Shown here piece after piece: positions 6,097 to 39,591 of a DNA stretch of 50,769 bases. The translations under genes and the position numbers were made by a program. Under the pieces are notes generated by a model. It worked only from the letters and a program-made list of their open reading frames with translations, did no database searches and was not told where the DNA came from. Source of the stretch: Hydrogenovibrio sp. SC-1 (GTDB lineage: Bacteria > Pseudomonadota > Gammaproteobacteria > Thiomicrospirales > Thiomicrospiraceae); the NCBI RefSeq assembly GCF_002848135.1, contig NZ_PKGB01000016.1:1-50769 (forward strand). The letters are read 5' to 3'. Numbering within the stretch: position 1 is the stretch's first letter; the number at the start of each line of letters is the position of its first letter.

Positions 6097-8914
6097 GAGA
6101 AGGGGGTTTATTGAGCATGATATTTAAGTAATACCCCGTGTGAGAATCGGGTTGGGATGCAAGCATTTCTGGTGTGCCTGTCGCAATGATATACCCTCCG
6201 CCTGACCCACCTTCCGGCCCAAGGTCAATAACCCAATCTGCCGTTTTGATCACGTCCAAATTGTGTTCGATAATGACAATAGTATTTCCTTGATCACGTA
6301 GATTTTTAATGACTTTCAATAATAACTCTATGTCATGAAAATGCAAGCCTGTTGTGGGTTCATCTAAAATGTAGAGGGTGTTGCCGGTATCTCTTTTAGA
6401 TAGTTCCTTAGCAAGCTTAACTCTTTGAGCTTCCCCACCAGAAAGTGTCGTCGCGCTTTGTCCCAGTTTTATATAGCCTAAGCCCACTTCCATGAGCATA
6501 TTCAGCTTTCGAGCAAGCACAGGGATGGCATCAAAAAAGGCGCGGGCATCTTCAACCGTCATGTCGAGAATCTCATGGATGTTCTTACCCTTGTATTGGA
6601 TCTGTAAAGTCTCGCGGTTATAGCGATGACCATTGCAGACATCACAGGCGACATATACATCCGGCAAGAAGTGCATCTCCACCTTAATCACACCATCGCC
6701 TTGACAAGCTTCACAGCGTCCACCTTTAACATTGAAGCTAAAGCGTCCAGGGGTATAACCTCGGGTGCGAGATTCAGGGGTGGCAGCTAATAATTCCCTG
6801 ATCGGTGTAAAAAGGCCGGTATAGGTCGCTGGGTTAGATCGGGGAGTACGTCCAATCGGGCTTTGATCAATATTGACCACTTTGTCAAAATGTTCAAGAC
6901 CAGTAACCGCTTGGTAGGGTGCAGGCTCAAGTTGCGCTTTATTAAGGGCATTTGCGGTAATTTTATAGAGTGTTTCATTAATAAGGGTCGATTTACCTGA
7001 GCCAGAGACGCCTGTAATACAGGTCAGTAATCCCGCAGGAATTTCCAAATTGACATCTTGTAAATTATTTCCGGACGCCCCTGTGATTTTCAACCAATTT
7101 TGGGGTAGGGACAGGCGCTGTTGTGGGATTTCAATGGCCTTTTTGCCGGTCAGATACTGCCCTGTTAAGGAGGCCTCTGTTTGCATCACAGCTTCTGGCG
7201 TGCCTTGTGCAATGATGCGTCCTCCATGAATACCCGCACCAGGACCAATATCCAACACATAATCGGCTGAACGAATCGCATCCTCATCATGTTCGACCAC
7301 AATCACAGTATTGCCCAAGTCTCTTAAATGATTGAGCGTGCTTAAGAGGCGGTCGTTGTCTCGTTGGTGTAATCCAATTGAGGGTTCATCGAGTACATAC
7401 ATTACGCCAACCAGTCCTGCGCCGATTTGGCTGGCAAGGCGGATGCGCTGTGCTTCCCCTCCTGAAAGGGTATCCGCACTTCGGTTTAGATTCAGATAGT
7501 TTAAGCCGACATTGACTAAAAAAGATAAGCGACTGTGAACTTCTTTAATAATTTTTTTAGCGATTTGCCCTTTGCTACCCTCCAGTGAAAGTTGTTGAAA
7601 AAACGCATGGAGCTCACCAATCGGTTGAGAGGTTAACTCAGGTAACGTATTTTCTGCCACAAAGACATTGCGTGCGGATTCATTTAGGCGAGTTCCACCG
7701 CAGCTATGGCAACGGTGGGAAACTCGGAATTTTTCCAACTCATCACGAACGGATTTGCTTTCCGTTTCTAAGAGCCGGCGCTCCATATTGGGAATAACCC
7801 CTTCAAAACGGCGAGTATCAGCATAGCGGCCGTGGGGTAACGGCAGTTTTTCCTTACCAGAACCATACAATATTATCTCTTGCTGACCAGCTGTTAGTGC
7901 TTGCCAAGGGGTTTCCATATCGAATTGGTAATAATCAGCAACGGCTTTGAGTAGGTCGTAGTAGTATTTGTGGCGACGATCCCACCCCCGAATAGCCCCC
8001 CCTGCAAGACTAAGCTCAGGGTGTATGACAATTTTATCGGCATCAAAGGTTTGTTTGACGCCCAATCCGTCACAAGCAGGACAAGCTCCATGCGGGTTAT
8101 TGAACGAAAATATTCGGGGTTCCAACTCAGCAACAGAGTAACCGCACTCTGGACAAGAAAAACGTTCTGAAAACACCAAACGGAAATCGTCATCAGAATC
8201 CATAGGCAGTACCAGTGCAATGCCTTCAGCCAAGTGGAGTGCCGTTTCAAACGATTCTGCTAAGCGTTGTTTAATGTCTTCCCGAACTTTAAATCGATCG
8301 ACCACCACTTCAATATCATGTTTGAGGTTTTTATTGAGCGCAATAGACCCATCTAGCTCCATGAGTTTGCCGTCAATGCGGGCGCGTAAGTAACCTTGTG
8401 CCTGTAGTTCATCAAGCAAATTTTGATGCGAGCCTTTTTTGCCTCTGACAATGGGTGCAACCAAAAGGCATTTACTGCCTTCCGGTAAGGCTAACGTGTG
8501 GTCTACCATTTGGCTAACGGTTTGTGCGACTAAATCACAATGGTGTGTTGGGCAGCGAGGAGTGCCGGCTCTTGCATAAAGGAGTCTTAAATAATCATAA
8601 ATCTCCGTGACGGTTCCGACCGTAGAGCGGGGGTTATGGGAGGTTGATTTTTGTTCAATCGAAATCGCGGGAGATAACCCTTCAATATGGTCAATATCCG
8701 GTTTTTCCATCACTGAAAGAAATTGGCGTGCATAGGCCGATAATGACTCGACGTAACGTCTTTGACCTTCTGCATAAATCGTATCGAAAGCCAATGAAGA
8801 TTTTCCTGAACCCGACAAGCCAGTAATGACTATTAGCTTATCCCGTGGTAAGGTCACATCAATATTTTTGAGGTTATGGGTGCGAGCCCCTCGGACAATA
8901 ATTTCTTCTAGCAT
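6089..8914 (-). CDS. uvrA: UvrABC system protein A
   Basis: UvrA is the damage-sensing ATPase of nucleotide excision repair. The 941-residue length is standard. There are two ABC ATPase modules: Walker [10 protein letters not shown] near residue 32 and GVSGSGKST near 640, and signature LSGGEAQR near 485 and again in the C-terminal half. Zinc fingers are seen as CPECGYS...CPACDGLG and CEACQGDG...CDVCNGH. The start [16 protein letters not shown] is typical. An extended -10 promoter lies about 34 bases upstream. It is divergent from the MFS-ssb pair, a common arrangement in this class. Confidence 0.98.
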
Positions 8915-27598: not shown

Positions 27599-28135
27599 AT
27601 GAAAATCATTGTGTTAGATCGGGACGGCGTCATCAATGAAGACTCCGATGACTATATTAAACACCCGGATGAATGGCATCCAATTTCAGGAAGTCTTGAA
27701 GCCATAGCCGTGCTGAAACAACGCGGTTGGACCGTAGCGATTGCGACGAATCAGTCTGGCATTCGACGAGGGTATTACAATCGACAAACTTTGCATGCGA
27801 TGCATCAAAAGTTTCAAGCGTTATTGAAATCGCATTCGGTCAGTGTGGATTGGATTAGTTACTCACCGTATGTCGCTGAGGATTTAAGTCCTTGTCGTAA
27901 ACCGCAAACGGGCATGTTGAGAGCCATCGAAAACCGATTTGGCTGTGCGTTAAAAGGACAACCAATGGTGGGCGATTCATTGGCCGACATCCGTGTGGCG
28001 AAAGCCCATCAGATGCGCCCTTTTTTGGTTAAAACCGGAAAGGGGATGCGAACGCTGGCTTCTAAGGCACCTGAGCTGCAAGGTGTTCCTGTCTATGAGT
28101 CCTTGGCAGCAGCCGTAAAGGAAAATTGGTTATGA
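27599..28135 (+). CDS. gmhB: D,D-heptose 1,7-bisphosphate phosphatase (GmhB-like HAD)
   Basis: HAD-superfamily histidinol-phosphatase/GmhB type, predicted to remove the C7 phosphate in ADP-heptose synthesis for LPS core. Seen: DRDGVINEDS near residue 7 (nucleophile and acid Asp), ATNQSGI near 50, CRKPQTGML near 103 and GDSLADI near 127. The zinc-binding loop usual in GmhB (CPH...CxC) is reduced to SPYVAEDLSPCRKP, with only one Cys. The true substrate may therefore differ, or this is a zinc-free form. It overlaps plsC by 4 bases (ATGA). Confidence 0.85.
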   Translation: MKIIVLDRDGVINEDSDDYIKHPDEWHPISGSLEAIAVLKQRGWTVAIATNQSGIRRGYYNRQTLHAMHQKFQALLKSHSVSVDWISYSPYVAEDLSPCRKPQTGMLRAIENRFGCALKGQPMVGDSLADIRVAKAHQMRPFLVKTGKGMRTLASKAPELQGVPVYESLAAAVKENWL

Positions 28136-28860
28136 AATTGATTTATTTATTGCGCTCACTGGTGTTTTCGATTGGTCAAATAACCACCTTAATCTTTTTT
28201 TCGGTGTTTGGGTTGTTGCTGTATCCTTTTTCTCACCAGGTCCGCTATCGCTTTATCCATTACTGGGCGCGGTTTTGTATTGTATGGTTGCGATGGACTT
28301 GTGGGGTCAAATATCGTGTATTTGGCTCAGAAAATATTGATTTTTCTAAGGCTGGTTTGGTTTTTGCTAGACACGAATCGGCATGGGAAACGTTCGCGTT
28401 TCAAGCAATTTTCCCGCAACTGACCTTCGTTTTGAAAAAGGAACTACTTAAAATTCCTTTTTTTGGTTGGGGACTGGCGATGCTGAGTCCGATTGCGATT
28501 GATCGGAACGCTGGTCGCAAGGCGATTAAACAAGTGGTCACGGAAGGCTGTCAAAGGATTGACGATCAGGTGTGGGTTGTCATCTTCCCCGAAGGTACGA
28601 GAATGCCTGCGGGGGTGCCGGGCGACATTAAGTCCGGTGGCGCTATGTTGGCAAAAAAGGCGTTGGCCCCCGTTTACTTGGTTGCACATAATGCTGGCAG
28701 TTGTTGGCCTAAAAATAGTTTTATAAAAAAACCAGGAACGATTGACGTTTATATCAGTCCACCACTGGATGTTGCAGCTTTATCGGTTGCAGAAATTAAT
28801 CAAAAAACAGAGGAATGGTTGTTTGCGCCTCATAGACCTCCTAAAAAGGAGGCAGTTTAA
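28132..28860 (+). CDS. plsC: 1-acyl-sn-glycerol-3-phosphate acyltransferase
   Basis: Inner-membrane acyltransferase making phosphatidic acid. There are one or two N-terminal hydrophobic segments (about residues 5-30). The catalytic block RHESAWETFA near 82 has the HESAWET form common in gammaproteobacteria rather than classic HX4D, and FPEGTRMPAG lies near 153. ATG at 28132, with AAGGA upstream, overlaps the gmhB stop; a TTG two codons earlier is less likely. The gmhB-plsC pairing suggests an envelope-lipid unit. Confidence 0.9.
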   Translation: MKLIYLLRSLVFSIGQITTLIFFSVFGLLLYPFSHQVRYRFIHYWARFCIVWLRWTCGVKYRVFGSENIDFSKAGLVFARHESAWETFAFQAIFPQLTFVLKKELLKIPFFGWGLAMLSPIAIDRNAGRKAIKQVVTEGCQRIDDQVWVVIFPEGTRMPAGVPGDIKSGGAMLAKKALAPVYLVAHNAGSCWPKNSFIKKPGTIDVYISPPLDVAALSVAEINQKTEEWLFAPHRPPKKEAV

Positions 28861-28885: not shown

Positions 28886-29710
28886 ATGAGTAAATTGGCA
28901 ACCTTCATTGGCGTCATTTTAGGACTGATTATTGTTGGTATGAGTATGTTTGACTTTGAAAAAGGTCAGATACTCATGGCTTTTTTTAATTGGCAGGGGT
29001 TGTTGGTGGTGCTGGGCGGCACTTTTGCGGCAACCTTTATCAACTATCCTTTAAGTCAAATGGGTTGTGCGTTTAATGGTTTAGGTAAAATCTTTTTTTC
29101 AGAACCGCCTTCCGACAATGAAGCCATTGAGCAAATTCTCTATCTAAGTCATATTGTCCAGAAAAAAGGCATTTTAGGCGTTGAGCGTGAAATTGACTTG
29201 CTTTCTGATCCTTTCCTGAGGTTTTCGATATCAGAGATGATGGTCTATCGAGATATTGATCTGCTCCGTAATAGTTTAGAAAACCGTTTAAATTCGATGC
29301 GACTACGTCATCTGACTTGCCAAGATATGTTCAATAATATGGCCGCATATGCGCCTGCATTTGGCATGATGGGAACGGTAATGGGGTTAATTATGATGAT
29401 GACGGCTCAAATGGCTCCGACCGACCCTACTGCCTTTTCGGGCGGTACAGATAATATGCTTGCTAACTTGTTGCAAGGGATGGGGTTAGCTCTGGTAACC
29501 ACCTTCTATGGCGTTTTATTTGCTAACTTTGTATTCATTCCTTCCGCAGGGAAGTTAAAGGTATTGTCTGATGCGGAAATATTTAAAAACGAAATTTTGA
29601 TTTTTGGGGTGTTGGGTTTAAAACAAGAGCAATCGCCACTGCTGTTAAGAGAAAGCATGATGGCCTTTTTAAATGAGAAAACCAAACAAAAACTGGCTGA
29701 TGCGGCCTAG
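28886..29710 (+). CDS. MotA/PomA-like stator subunit, first gene of a three-gene Mot-like operon
   Basis: A 274-residue inner-membrane protein of the MotA/TolQ/ExbB proton-channel superfamily. Four membrane segments are seen: about residues 4-20, 33-52, 155-177 and 193-215. The third has PAFGMMGTVMGL and the fourth LALVTTFYGVLFAN, close to PomA rather than to the longer E. coli MotA. The cytoplasmic loop between segments 2 and 3 carries charged residues as in stators. It has only a weak ribosome site. It is followed by two MotB-like genes and is distinct from the motA at 37976. Confidence 0.88.
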   Translation: MSKLATFIGVILGLIIVGMSMFDFEKGQILMAFFNWQGLLVVLGGTFAATFINYPLSQMGCAFNGLGKIFFSEPPSDNEAIEQILYLSHIVQKKGILGVEREIDLLSDPFLRFSISEMMVYRDIDLLRNSLENRLNSMRLRHLTCQDMFNNMAAYAPAFGMMGTVMGLIMMMTAQMAPTDPTAFSGGTDNMLANLLQGMGLALVTTFYGVLFANFVFIPSAGKLKVLSDAEIFKNEILIFGVLGLKQEQSPLLLRESMMAFLNEKTKQKLADAA

Positions 29711-29721
29711 GCGAGGCGCCG

Positions 29722-30459
29722 ATGAAAGCGCAAGACATTATTCAATCACAGGAAGGCCAAGCACTTAGACAATTACGCCGCAATAAATCGTGGCAACTGG
29801 TTTTTGTGGCCTTGTTTACAGCACTGTTAGCTTTTTTTGTGCTGATTGTCGCGATGATTGAAGTTGAAACCAATGCCAAAAAACGGGATTATCAGCGTCT
29901 TGTGAATAGCCTTTACCAAGAAATTAACTTTGAAAAAGAGCGCATGGGGCTGAGTTGGCTGCATACTGAAAACACGCTGACCAAAGGGATTCGGTTGACG
30001 ATTGCTTCAGAGGTTTTTGAAGAAACACCGTTATTTATGTCTGCTAGAGCTAGGGTCAATCCACGCTACATGCCTTATGTTAACCGCCTAGTCGAATTAC
30101 TCAATCGAATGCAACTGGAGACGGTTCGGCAACGCTATCCAAATTGGGTTGCGACCTTACGAGAGCCGGGCGATGACTTTGTTGTGACGGTTCGTGTTGA
30201 GGGGCATACGGATGCCAATCCCATGACGGGTGCAGGGATGTATCGATCAAACTACGAATTGAGTGCGTTGCGTGCCTATGCCATTATGGAGTTGCTTAGA
30301 ATCTACACACAACTTCCGAGCCGGCAATTCGCGATAGCAGGTTACGGCCCTTTCTACCCTTTGAACCCGCAGGATCCTTTTGCCGCAGAAAACCGTCGAG
30401 TTGAAATCTATATCGTGCCACAAGTGATTCCAGAGGCGATAGACGATGTCAACGGTTAG
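29722..30459 (+). CDS. MotB-like protein lacking the channel aspartate
   Basis: A 245-residue protein with a short cytoplasmic N-terminus, one membrane segment (about residues 25-46) and an OmpA/MotB peptidoglycan-binding domain (about 145-240: VEGHTDANP, NYELSALRAYAI, NRRVEIYI). In MotB the proton-binding Asp sits six residues after the Trp that opens the segment (W16/D22 in the ordinary MotB at 38818). Here that register is W24/A30, so the Asp is Ala. The downstream gene overlaps it by 14 bases and keeps the Asp. It may act as a passive partner in a mixed stator; this is inference. Confidence 0.85.
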   Translation: MKAQDIIQSQEGQALRQLRRNKSWQLVFVALFTALLAFFVLIVAMIEVETNAKKRDYQRLVNSLYQEINFEKERMGLSWLHTENTLTKGIRLTIASEVFEETPLFMSARARVNPRYMPYVNRLVELLNRMQLETVRQRYPNWVATLREPGDDFVVTVRVEGHTDANPMTGAGMYRSNYELSALRAYAIMELLRIYTQLPSRQFAIAGYGPFYPLNPQDPFAAENRRVEIYIVPQVIPEAIDDVNG

Positions 30460-31153
30460 ATCTGAAAAAGCACGGTCTGCTTGGCTATTTTCATTTGGTG
30501 ATGTGCTCACTTTATTGATTACCTTTTTTATTATGATGATCGTATTGAATAAAGGGGAAATCACGAAGGTGCAACGCTGGAGTGATATTCAGTTAAAAAT
30601 GGTGTATGACGGCCTAGCAGACGAGATGCAAAGTGCTCAGTTTGTCGAAATCGATTATCAAATGCAGGGTGCAATGATTAATGTCAATAATCCCAATGCG
30701 TTCTTGAAAGGGGGGTATGAGCCTTCGCCAGCTTTTGAGGCCGAATTAAATCGGGTTGGTAAAAGGCTCAAAATGATGGGACTCTTTAAGATTCAACCGA
30801 GTGAAATGCCCGATTATGTTCAAAACTATATGGAATCCGACGACCTGATCTGGCGGCCGGAAATCGCCATTGAAGGGCATACGGATAGTGATGCAATTGA
30901 CCCAAACTCTGCATTACGGAATAACTGGTTTCTCAGTACCATGCGAGCTCAAGCGGTGATGCAGATTTTGTTTAATGCCAGTGAGCTTGATCAATCGTTA
31001 TTTGGTATGGCGGGCTATGGAGAACACCGTCCTAAGGTCAATAATGACAGCTTTCAAGGTAAAGCACAAAATAGACGAGTGCAAATTTTGATTTCTGCAA
31101 CCTTCGAAAAGGCCTCACAAAGTGGCCGATCCGATTTAAAAAACACTAGATAG
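30446..31153 (+). CDS. Second MotB-like protein, channel aspartate present
   Basis: A 235-residue protein with one membrane segment (about residues 13-34) opening W13-LFSFG-D19, so the channel Asp is kept in the MotB register. The periplasmic OmpA-like domain (about 125-225) has IEGHTDSD, NWFLSTMRAQAV and NRRVQILI. It overlaps the previous MotB-like gene by 14 bases in another frame, pointing to coupled translation at a matched ratio. It is divergent in sequence from that gene, so it is not a recent duplicate. It converges on ung with a 2-base gap. Confidence 0.85.
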   Translation: MSTVRSEKARSAWLFSFGDVLTLLITFFIMMIVLNKGEITKVQRWSDIQLKMVYDGLADEMQSAQFVEIDYQMQGAMINVNNPNAFLKGGYEPSPAFEAELNRVGKRLKMMGLFKIQPSEMPDYVQNYMESDDLIWRPEIAIEGHTDSDAIDPNSALRNNWFLSTMRAQAVMQILFNASELDQSLFGMAGYGEHRPKVNNDSFQGKAQNRRVQILISATFEKASQSGRSDLKNTR

Positions 31154-37975: not shown

Positions 37976-38818
37976 ATGATTTCAAAAATTATTGCAATAC
38001 TCATCATTATTGGGAGTTCCGTCGGCGGATTTATCTGGTCCGGCGGATCGCTTGGTTCATTATGGCATCCTGCTGAATTGTTGGTGATACTTGGGCTTGG
38101 ATTAGGTGTATTTTTAAGTTCAACACCTGTTTATATCTGGAAAAAAACACTGGTGTTTACTGGGCGTTTTTTCAGTGGGGGGCGGGTTAATAAAAAAACC
38201 TATGTTGAAGTGCTGAGTTTGTTAGATGATTTGGCCAGATTAGTACGTGCAGACGGTCTTTTGGCATTGGATCGGCATATGGAGGATCCTGACAACAGTA
38301 CTATTTTTACCAAATACCCGCTTATTATGAAGCATCGGGAGTTGAAGAAATTTATTGTTGATAATTTTAGCTTTCTGCTTTTAAACCCACCGCAGTCACT
38401 TAATTTTGAAAACTATCTAGATAATCAGATTCATGATGTTTATCAGTCTATGATGGAAGTTCCGAAAGCGACAGGAAAAATTGCTAACTTGATGCCTGGT
38501 TTCGGGATTATTGCGGCGGTAATGGGGGTCATCTTGACAATGAATTTGCTCGGTGGCGATATGGATGTGTCTCTGATCGGGACATCAATTGGTGCCGCAT
38601 TAGTCGGTACCTTGACTGGGATATTCTTTGCATTTTCGGTGATCGCCCCGTTCACCCATGCGGTTGAAATTATGATTCGCCAGGATAAGGCGATGTTTTC
38701 TGTGGTAGCGTCTTTTTTACTCGCCTTTTCTTATGGGGTTTCTCCTGCATTAGCTTTTGAAGTCGGTCGGCAACGAGTGCCGCCCGAATTTGAGATAACT
38801 CGGTCAGGAAATGAATAA
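37976..38818 (+). CDS. motA: Flagellar motor stator protein MotA
   Basis: A 280-residue inner-membrane protein of the longer, proton-type MotA family. Membrane segments lie at about residues 3-20, 33-52, 168-192 and 200-225. PGFGIIAAVMGVILTMNLLGG precedes the last pair and GTLTGIFFAFSVIAPF forms the fourth. The cytoplasmic loop includes RADGLLALDRHMEDP and KKFIVDNF, typical of MotA. The stop overlaps the motB ATG by one base (TAATG). It is the canonical counterpart to the Mot-like operon at 28.9 kb. Confidence 0.92.
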   Translation: MISKIIAILIIIGSSVGGFIWSGGSLGSLWHPAELLVILGLGLGVFLSSTPVYIWKKTLVFTGRFFSGGRVNKKTYVEVLSLLDDLARLVRADGLLALDRHMEDPDNSTIFTKYPLIMKHRELKKFIVDNFSFLLLNPPQSLNFENYLDNQIHDVYQSMMEVPKATGKIANLMPGFGIIAAVMGVILTMNLLGGDMDVSLIGTSIGAALVGTLTGIFFAFSVIAPFTHAVEIMIRQDKAMFSVVASFLLAFSYGVSPALAFEVGRQRVPPEFEITRSGNE

Positions 38819-39591
38819 TGTCAAGAAAGGATGACCATGATGTACATGATGAGGGCGGCGCTTGGGAAATCGCTCTAGCCGACCTAATGACGACCTTGAT
38901 GGTGTTCTTCTTGGTCATGTGGCTGTTGTCCATTGTGGATACGGACAAGCGTAAAGCATTTGTGAATGGCTTAATGGGGGCGGGAACCTCTGGTGATGTC
39001 CTTGTGGAAGAGATTACCGGTAAACACGTTCAAACTGACTCTATTGAACCGATTGCCGAGTTAAAACAGCCGATTACCACTGATGAAATTAAGGAAGTCT
39101 TGTCTGAAGTTGATCCCAAGGATATCGATGTTGAAGAAACTGAGGACTACACCAAAATTACTTTGCGATCGGATAGCTTTTTTGAAAGTGGTCGCGCGTC
39201 AATTACCGATAGTACCCGTGAGCAACTCGAACAATTGGGTGAGTCTTTGGCTGGCCGTGAACAAGGGCTAACGATTACCGGTTATACCGATAGTATTCCG
39301 ATTAATAATTTACAATTCCCATCAAACTGGGAGCTTTCTGCCGCTCGAGCGGCAACCATCGCTCGTACCTTTATTTATATGGGGGTTGAAGCCGGGTTGG
39401 TGACGATTGAAGGGAAAGCGGATAATGAACCCGTCGCGCCCAATTCAACGGCTTATGGTCGATCATTAAATCGTCGTGTTATTATCCTGGTGGATAAGAA
39501 AGCTAAAGAAAAGCTCCCTGAAGCGTCTTCAAACAGCAGACCCACTGCTGCGCAAATACCTGCCGCTCGATCAAATAGCATTCGACCTTAA
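38818..39591 (+). CDS. motB: Flagellar motor stator protein MotB
   Basis: A 257-residue MotB with the proton channel segment W16-EIALA-D22-LMTTLMVFFLVMWL intact. The plug and linker follow, then an OmpA-like peptidoglycan-binding domain (about 115-225: TITGYTDSIPI, NWELSAARAATIAR, NRRVIILVD). A low-complexity C-terminal tail ends it. It starts on the motA stop. Its 3' end overlaps the convergent moeB by 4 bases. Confidence 0.93.
   Translation: MSRKDDHDVHDEGGAWEIALADLMTTLMVFFLVMWLLSIVDTDKRKAFVNGLMGAGTSGDVLVEEITGKHVQTDSIEPIAELKQPITTDEIKEVLSEVDPKDIDVEETEDYTKITLRSDSFFESGRASITDSTREQLEQLGESLAGREQGLTITGYTDSIPINNLQFPSNWELSAARAATIARTFIYMGVEAGLVTIEGKADNEPVAPNSTAYGRSLNRRVIILVDKKAKEKLPEASSNSRPTAAQIPAARSNSIRP

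Follow-up and report, generated by a model that had tools for sequence, protein, structure and literature searches.

The closest described relatives of the locus considered here are the flagellar stators, among them the Na+-driven PomA-PomB complex of Vibrio, in which five A subunits surround two B subunits (A5B2). In the 5:2 model as set out in one account, the aspartates of the two B chains alternate and one ion passes for each 36 degrees of rotation (PMC9389320), and a passage in another paper proposes that rotation occurs when both aspartates are protonated (PMC10659934). In current models of this kind the two B chains are equal partners whose ion sites alternate, and the B-chain aspartate has been called, in a passage on stator families, universally conserved (PMC10374538). 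Threonines T158, T185 and T186 are described as essential in PomAB (PMC6677748, PMC10374538), and coupling to FliG is described as strictly requiring the PomA residues R88, E96 and D114 (PMC10374538). One A-type gene together with two B-type genes is found in the AglR-AglQ-AglS gliding motor of Myxococcus, where AglQ and AglS are of the ExbD/TolR type (PMC3169522); a passage on this motor describes both with the conserved aspartate and states the existence of a B-B heterodimer as an open question (PMC9389320). Searches of the open-licence PMC literature, which covers few subscription papers and no bioRxiv preprints, found no description of a flagellar stator with the gene order A-B-B or of a MotB partner lacking the aspartate.

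The window, a stretch of 50,769 nucleotides from Hydrogenovibrio sp. SC-1, contains a gene for a PomA/MotA-like protein (A) followed by genes for two unlike MotB-like proteins (B1 and B2; Table 1). Open reading frames, translations and Pfam matches bore out the gene order, the coordinates, the overlap of B1 and B2 by 14 bases (30446-30459) and the key residues given in an initial sequence-only reading of this DNA: the Trp opening the membrane helix and the residue at the ion site are W24/A30 in B1, W13/D19 in B2 and W16/D22 in the ordinary MotB of the window. A gap of 25 bases separates plsC from A, and a scan for promoters and terminators gave nothing above chance.

Table 1. Genes of the A-B1-B2 locus, its upstream neighbours and the canonical pair used for comparison (positions in the window).
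Feature	Position	Strand	Description
A (PomA/MotA-type ring subunit, 274 aa)	28886..29710	+	Pfam MotA_ExbB; PomA-like fold, full-size cytoplasmic domain; Thr triad T164/T205/T206
B1 (MotB-like, 245 aa)	29722..30459	+	Single membrane helix, A30 at ion-binding position; OmpA-like domain
B2 (MotB-like, 235 aa)	30446..31153	+	Single membrane helix, D19 at ion-binding position; OmpA-like domain
gmhB and plsC, just upstream of A	gmhB 27599-28135, plsC 28126-28860	+	Names by resemblance; not counted as motor part
Separate canonical motA-motB, comparison set	37976..39591	+	Single B, Asp present

A resembles the Vibrio A subunit in fold and in sequence, including the equivalents of T158, T185, T186 and M155, and B1 and B2, like PomB, combine a single membrane helix with an OmpA-like domain. 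The locus differs from PomA-PomB in its two dissimilar B proteins, one without the aspartate, and at the position equivalent to R88. The canonical MotA-MotB of the window has the same overall architecture but a single B protein, and its A protein has Ala and Gly in place of two of the three threonines. The A-B-B arrangement recalls AglRQS; however, B1 and B2 match the Pfam families OmpA and MotB_plug and not ExbD, which sets them apart from AglRQS, ExbBD and TolQR. The matches are MotA_ExbB for A (E 2.1e-19), OmpA (E 1.9e-6) and, below its cut-off, MotB_plug (E 1.4e-4) for B1, and OmpA (E 1.6e-8) and MotB_plug (E 5.3e-8) for B2. The top NCBIfam models for A are MotP, MotA and PomA, all below their equivalog cut-offs. 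A role in phage defence of the Zorya type was considered and rejected: the PADLOC profile for ZorB matches B1 (E 1.7e-13) and B2 (E 2e-17), but it matches the ordinary MotB of the window too (E 1.9e-18), and A has no PADLOC match up to E 1.

The AlphaFold model of A (mean pLDDT 78.5, built from 23 sequences) has PomA (8brd, E 3.3e-12) and MotA (8ucs) as its best solved fold matches, with ExbB/TolQ appearing only at E 0.011 or worse, and a profile search with A returned MotA/PomA chains alone at E 0.001. Fold and profile matches together place A among the MotA-type proteins with a full torque-generating cytoplasmic domain. The PomA numbering that we take to apply to A was placed partly from the Vibrio sequence and partly from published passages. 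With this numbering, the equivalents of T158, T185 and T186 are present in all 43 A proteins of the window's family, in 53/53 A proteins from distant A-B-B loci (54 loci less identical copies) and in 20/20 PomA controls, whereas in MotA controls Ala and Gly replace two of these threonines; A thus carries the threonine triad of Na+ stators. The rotor-coupling charges tell a different story in the family: E96 is kept in 43/43, and R88 is lost, the site holding Arg in a single protein out of 43 and otherwise Lys (21), Gln (8), His (7), Tyr (3), Leu (2) or Phe (1), compared with Arg in 41/41 of the canonical stators fetched from the same family. The D114 site is occupied by V, I, L, T or S and is acidic in none of the 43, which proves nothing since the controls vary too (Asp in 13/20 PomA and in no MotA). 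R88, K89, E96 and D114 are all kept in the 53 distant A-B-B proteins. Loss of the rotor Arg is not special to A-B-B loci, since it is also absent from 30/56 distant A proteins with a single B (present in 26/56).

Both B proteins have an OmpA-like domain as judged by Pfam and by motif columns, with the G-H-T-D and L-S-x-x-R-A columns conserved or nearly so in each, and we consider that both probably bind peptidoglycan. The AlphaFold model of B1 (mean pLDDT 87.8) has as its nearest folds the periplasmic domains of MotS, PomB and MotB, with one ZorB chain among the matches.

A search at the level of the order yielded 62 genomes, all assigned to the window's family and including near-duplicates such as G012 and G018. 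A, B1 and B2 follow one another as in the window in 45 of them, spread over six of the seven genera; both B proteins were recovered in all 45 and A in 44, its pieces lying on separate contigs in G011. At the ion site B1 has Ala in 17, Ser in 15, Gly in 10, Thr in one and Asp in two genomes, giving a residue other than Asp in 43/45, and B2 has Asp in 45/45. The helix-opening Trp of B1 is kept in 41/45. Canonical B proteins of the family, from 40 loci chosen by hand out of longer lists plus the window's own, have Asp in 41/41 (20 PomB and 21 MotB). A first B protein without Asp followed by a second with Asp is therefore close to fixed in the family, and its recurrence in 45/62 genomes, with only two of the 45 having Asp in both, is more than chance. 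The 17 genomes in which no match to the B1 profile was found at 1e-15 also gave no family-level match to the A profile.

To look beyond the family, the A profile was run on 369 genomes from the class and 398 from across the phylum. A gap separates the sampled family members, which score 412-461 bits, from all other matches, none of which exceeds 185. The distant set comprises 114 loci (32 + 82), which are all the non-family matches at E 1e-42 or better after L329, a duplicate of L215, was dropped. Two B genes are present in 54/114, and at these loci the second B protein has Asp in 54/54 and the first never does, having Glu in 49, Gln in four and Ser in one. Single-B loci have Asp in 58 of the 59 that could be read, L313 and L322 being among the 58 and read by eye, and in L295 the end of the contig cuts the locus after its first (Glu) B. 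The two-B loci belong to families f207, f227 and f240, whose kinship with the window goes no closer than the phylum, and to one genome of the same class (G181). This last locus was found by the A profile and missed by a B1 profile scan of the class in which up to seven candidates per genome were scored, so absence from that scan is uninformative; the hits listed outside the family at E 1e-15 start at profile position 58 or later and miss the membrane helix. The exception among the readable single-B loci is L307 (genome G598, 57% complete), where a flagellar-type MotA (80-844) is followed by a single MotB-like protein (1088-1885) with Ser at the Asp site.

The sequence-only reading had inferred one silent half-channel and had asked whether Asp/Ala is a fixed pattern. 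The asymmetry itself stood, in the family and in all 54 distant loci, but the residue in the first B protein varies, and two sister genomes have Asp in both proteins, an outcome that the reading had named as counting against it. The first site need not be silent in the distant loci, where the usual Glu could still bind an ion.

Outside the class, these loci lie in a flagellar setting. In the three neighbourhoods scanned out of 11 fetched (L331, L333, L338), the order is A-B1-B2-FliL-FliM, with FliN also present in L333 and L338 and FliP in L333; the FliM match (PF02154) of L338 is below cut-off. Within the class, about 8 kb separates A-B-B from FliG in G181, and this 19.5 kb stretch also contains flgK and a flagellin-N gene. 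FliG was found in 19 of 20 genomes searched, the exception being G454. We listed the MotA_ExbB matches of seven f207 genomes and of G181, assigning TolQ/ExbB labels by length and motifs. The A protein of A-B-B is the only MotA type among the matches read in G430 (3/3), G436 (4/4) and G512 (4/4), all with FliG, and among 7/8 in G181, where the weak match C4 was left unassigned. It is also the sole MotA type among the four matches of G454, the genome with no FliG match, and a second, single-B set of MotA type accompanies A-B-B in G461, G433 and G519. At the ion site of the first B protein G430 and G436 have Glu, G512 (93% complete) has Gln and G181 has Ser. Outside the class, A-B-B is very probably a flagellar stator, and the gene content of G430, G436, G512 and G181 leads us to conclude that it is the flagellar stator in these four.

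How would such a set of genes work? The reading that we favour, and that we hold to be somewhat better than an even bet, is an A5-B1-B2 rotary ion motor with a heterodimeric axle and a single aspartate. A would form the pentameric ring of a 5:2-type motor, of the PomA type and with the threonine triad of Na+ stators, and the axle would be a B1-B2 heterodimer in place of two identical B chains. B2 would supply the ion-binding Asp and alone load and release the ion as the ring turns, while B1, its Asp replaced by a small neutral residue, would pack against B2 and be anchored to peptidoglycan as B2 is. A neutral residue at this site, above all Gln, may mimic an Asp that is permanently filled with an ion. 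One turn would then cost about five ions in 72-degree steps, as against ten in 36-degree steps. The heterodimer, the stoichiometry, the ion, the stepping and the present target are all things that we infer from the sequences compared here. Published models in which both aspartates take part count against a motor with one. If true, the one-Asp reading would contradict models in which two equivalent sites must alternate, and a natural motor of this kind would offer a direct test of the need for two sites, of the number of ions per turn and of an axle made of unequal chains.

The membrane helices allow B1 to be considered at the position where two B chains would meet. At the interface position beside the Asp site, B1 has Ile or Val opposite Gly or Ala in B2 in 43/45 family genomes; the two genomes with Asp in B1 (G026 and G019) have Ala/Ala there, as do most canonical B proteins of the family. 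The substitution A31I at this position is reported, in a passage on the E. coli homodimer, to abolish motility (PMC10659934). Such knob-and-hole packing is only suggestive of a heterodimer, since bulky residues stand at the interface in single-B proteins too (L, V, I or M in 37/56).

The strongest alternative keeps B1 out of the pore altogether. The motor would be a standard homodimeric A5-B2-B2, and B1, tethered to the membrane by the MotB-like helix that it kept, would be an accessory that grips peptidoglycan or places the stator. Its OmpA-like domain and conserved motif columns would be retained for such a task and its Asp would be free to go; stator-stabilising periplasmic partners do exist, the T-ring proteins MotX and MotY being described in this role (PMC9093738). 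The helix of B1, however, is conserved along its length in the family, with L12 in 45/45, F15 in 44/45 and A, S, G or T at the Asp site in 43/45, though less so than that of B2, and it is nearly invariant in the distant loci, as expected of a helix packed in a ring. Furthermore, the Asp has apparently been regained at exactly this site. Its two carriers are sisters nested in genus g6 beside a Ser-bearing relative, and on a tree made without the B1 helix, from 42/45 rows (G018, G023 and G011 left out), a single change accounts for them, which makes regain simpler than many losses. We rate an accessory B1 as unlikely. The two Asp-bearing B1 proteins, together with the Ser, Gln and Glu versions found elsewhere, amount to a ready-made series of natural mutants.

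We regard as improbable a further scheme in which A assembles into two alternative motors, an active A5-B2-B2 and an inactive A5-B1-B1, so that B1 acts as a brake or as a decoy that titrates A. Gene order would lead one to expect co-expression, and an Asp-less B1 would resemble PomB D24N, described as non-motile in a passage on that protein (PMC6677748). A B1 homodimer would nevertheless set Ile/Val against Ile/Val, much like the non-motile A31I homodimer, and the Glu that prevails in the first B protein of distant loci is not an obvious dead residue. That the family locus is the decaying leftover of a stator is very improbable: the set is absent from 17/62 genomes and has lost the rotor Arg, and decay of the first gene in relatives, a possibility raised by the sequence-only reading, was met for B1 in one genome (G055, with B1 frameshifted and in two pieces), but B1 is unbroken in the other 44/45, the Asp of B2 and the threonine triad of A are strictly conserved over a deep tree, and the set is kept in six genera, in one of them elsewhere in the genome. 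A split A gene occurs in G065.

If the A5-B1-B2 motor is accepted, the design would be a variant of the flagellar stator, found among flagellar genes and with intact rotor charges outside the class and in the one class genome outside the family. A broader proposal, which we put forward tentatively and rate at somewhat less than an even chance, is that these loci represent an ancient and widespread class of stators of the flagellar type, in which the axle is heterodimeric and the Asp is on one chain only, the other bearing Ala, Ser, Gly, Thr or Gln (in many cases Glu). Such stators would act as the sole flagellar stator in some species (candidates are G181, with Ser/Asp, and G512, with Gln/Asp) and would have been redirected to a different task in the window's family. 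With the rotor Arg so nearly absent from the family, the flagellar relatives are no guide to function there. Because A-B-B coexists with ordinary stators in nearly all family genomes and has lost the rotor Arg, its target may have changed in the family, where it would either drive the flagellum through an altered coupling or drive some other target in the envelope.

The set is indeed an extra one in its own genome, as had been claimed from the canonical motAB of the window, since three canonical MotA/PomA matches occur there besides A. This observation, together with the retention of FlhA in 16 of the 17 family genomes that lack A-B-B, led us to reject A-B-B as the sole flagellar stator throughout the family; an exception is G020 (95% complete, 160 contigs), which has A-B-B and FlhA and no MotA_N match. 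Nor does gene content support a strictly non-flagellar role in the family: G015, the only family genome without FliG_C and FlhA matches, also lacks A-B-B, and G065 and G077, which have A-B-B without FlhA and with weak FliG_C matches only, are 88% and 86% complete. The motAB pair of the window represents a second MotAB type that recurs in many genomes of the family, frequently at a distance of roughly 9-40 kb from A-B-B. A further PomAB-like type, with a helix such as WMVTYADAMT, occurs in some family genomes (L177, L178, L184 and L192, also L180 and L186), and in the A tree the first four of these stand on a long branch of their own, away from the main PomA group.

The origin of the arrangement was approached with quick trees. 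In the free A tree the family and distant sets fall into two clades, and in the free B tree B1 and B2 of the family are sisters (SH-aLRT 95), which fits separate duplications as well. A common origin was not rejected by the AU test (p-AU 0.776 for A, 0.642 for B1 and 0.634 for B2), and for each protein the tree in which A-B-B was constrained to one group is likelier than the unconstrained quick tree. A single origin and a double origin are both tenable, with the free A and B trees favouring two.

The neighbouring genes had been read as a hint of an envelope role. The order gmhB-plsC-A is seen in 28/33 family loci examined; among the remaining five, L135, L167 and L168 miss a neighbour in the gene calls, and the two loci of genus g2 (L150, and L151, which is cut short upstream) have A-B-B at another genomic address. 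Since the g2 set lies elsewhere, and outside the class A-B-B heads flagellar operons that run into fliL-fliM, we set the envelope reading of these neighbours aside as a weak hint; gmhB-plsC is treated as an inherited address of A-B-B that says little about function. In a genome of another class, genes resembling gmhB and plsC lie about 6 kb beyond A-B-B (L333:207-1483).

Finally, most family genomes contain two extra weak FliG_C matches besides FliG, often as adjacent pairs; the window's own genome has one and g2 none. Two adjacent 154-aa proteins are encoded in the window's own genome (contig C5, L153:6134-6595 and 6607-7068) and in many others of the family. A link between the paired FliG_C-like small proteins and A-B-B was considered and rejected: the pair occurs in genomes without A-B-B and is unmatched in g2, where A-B-B is present.
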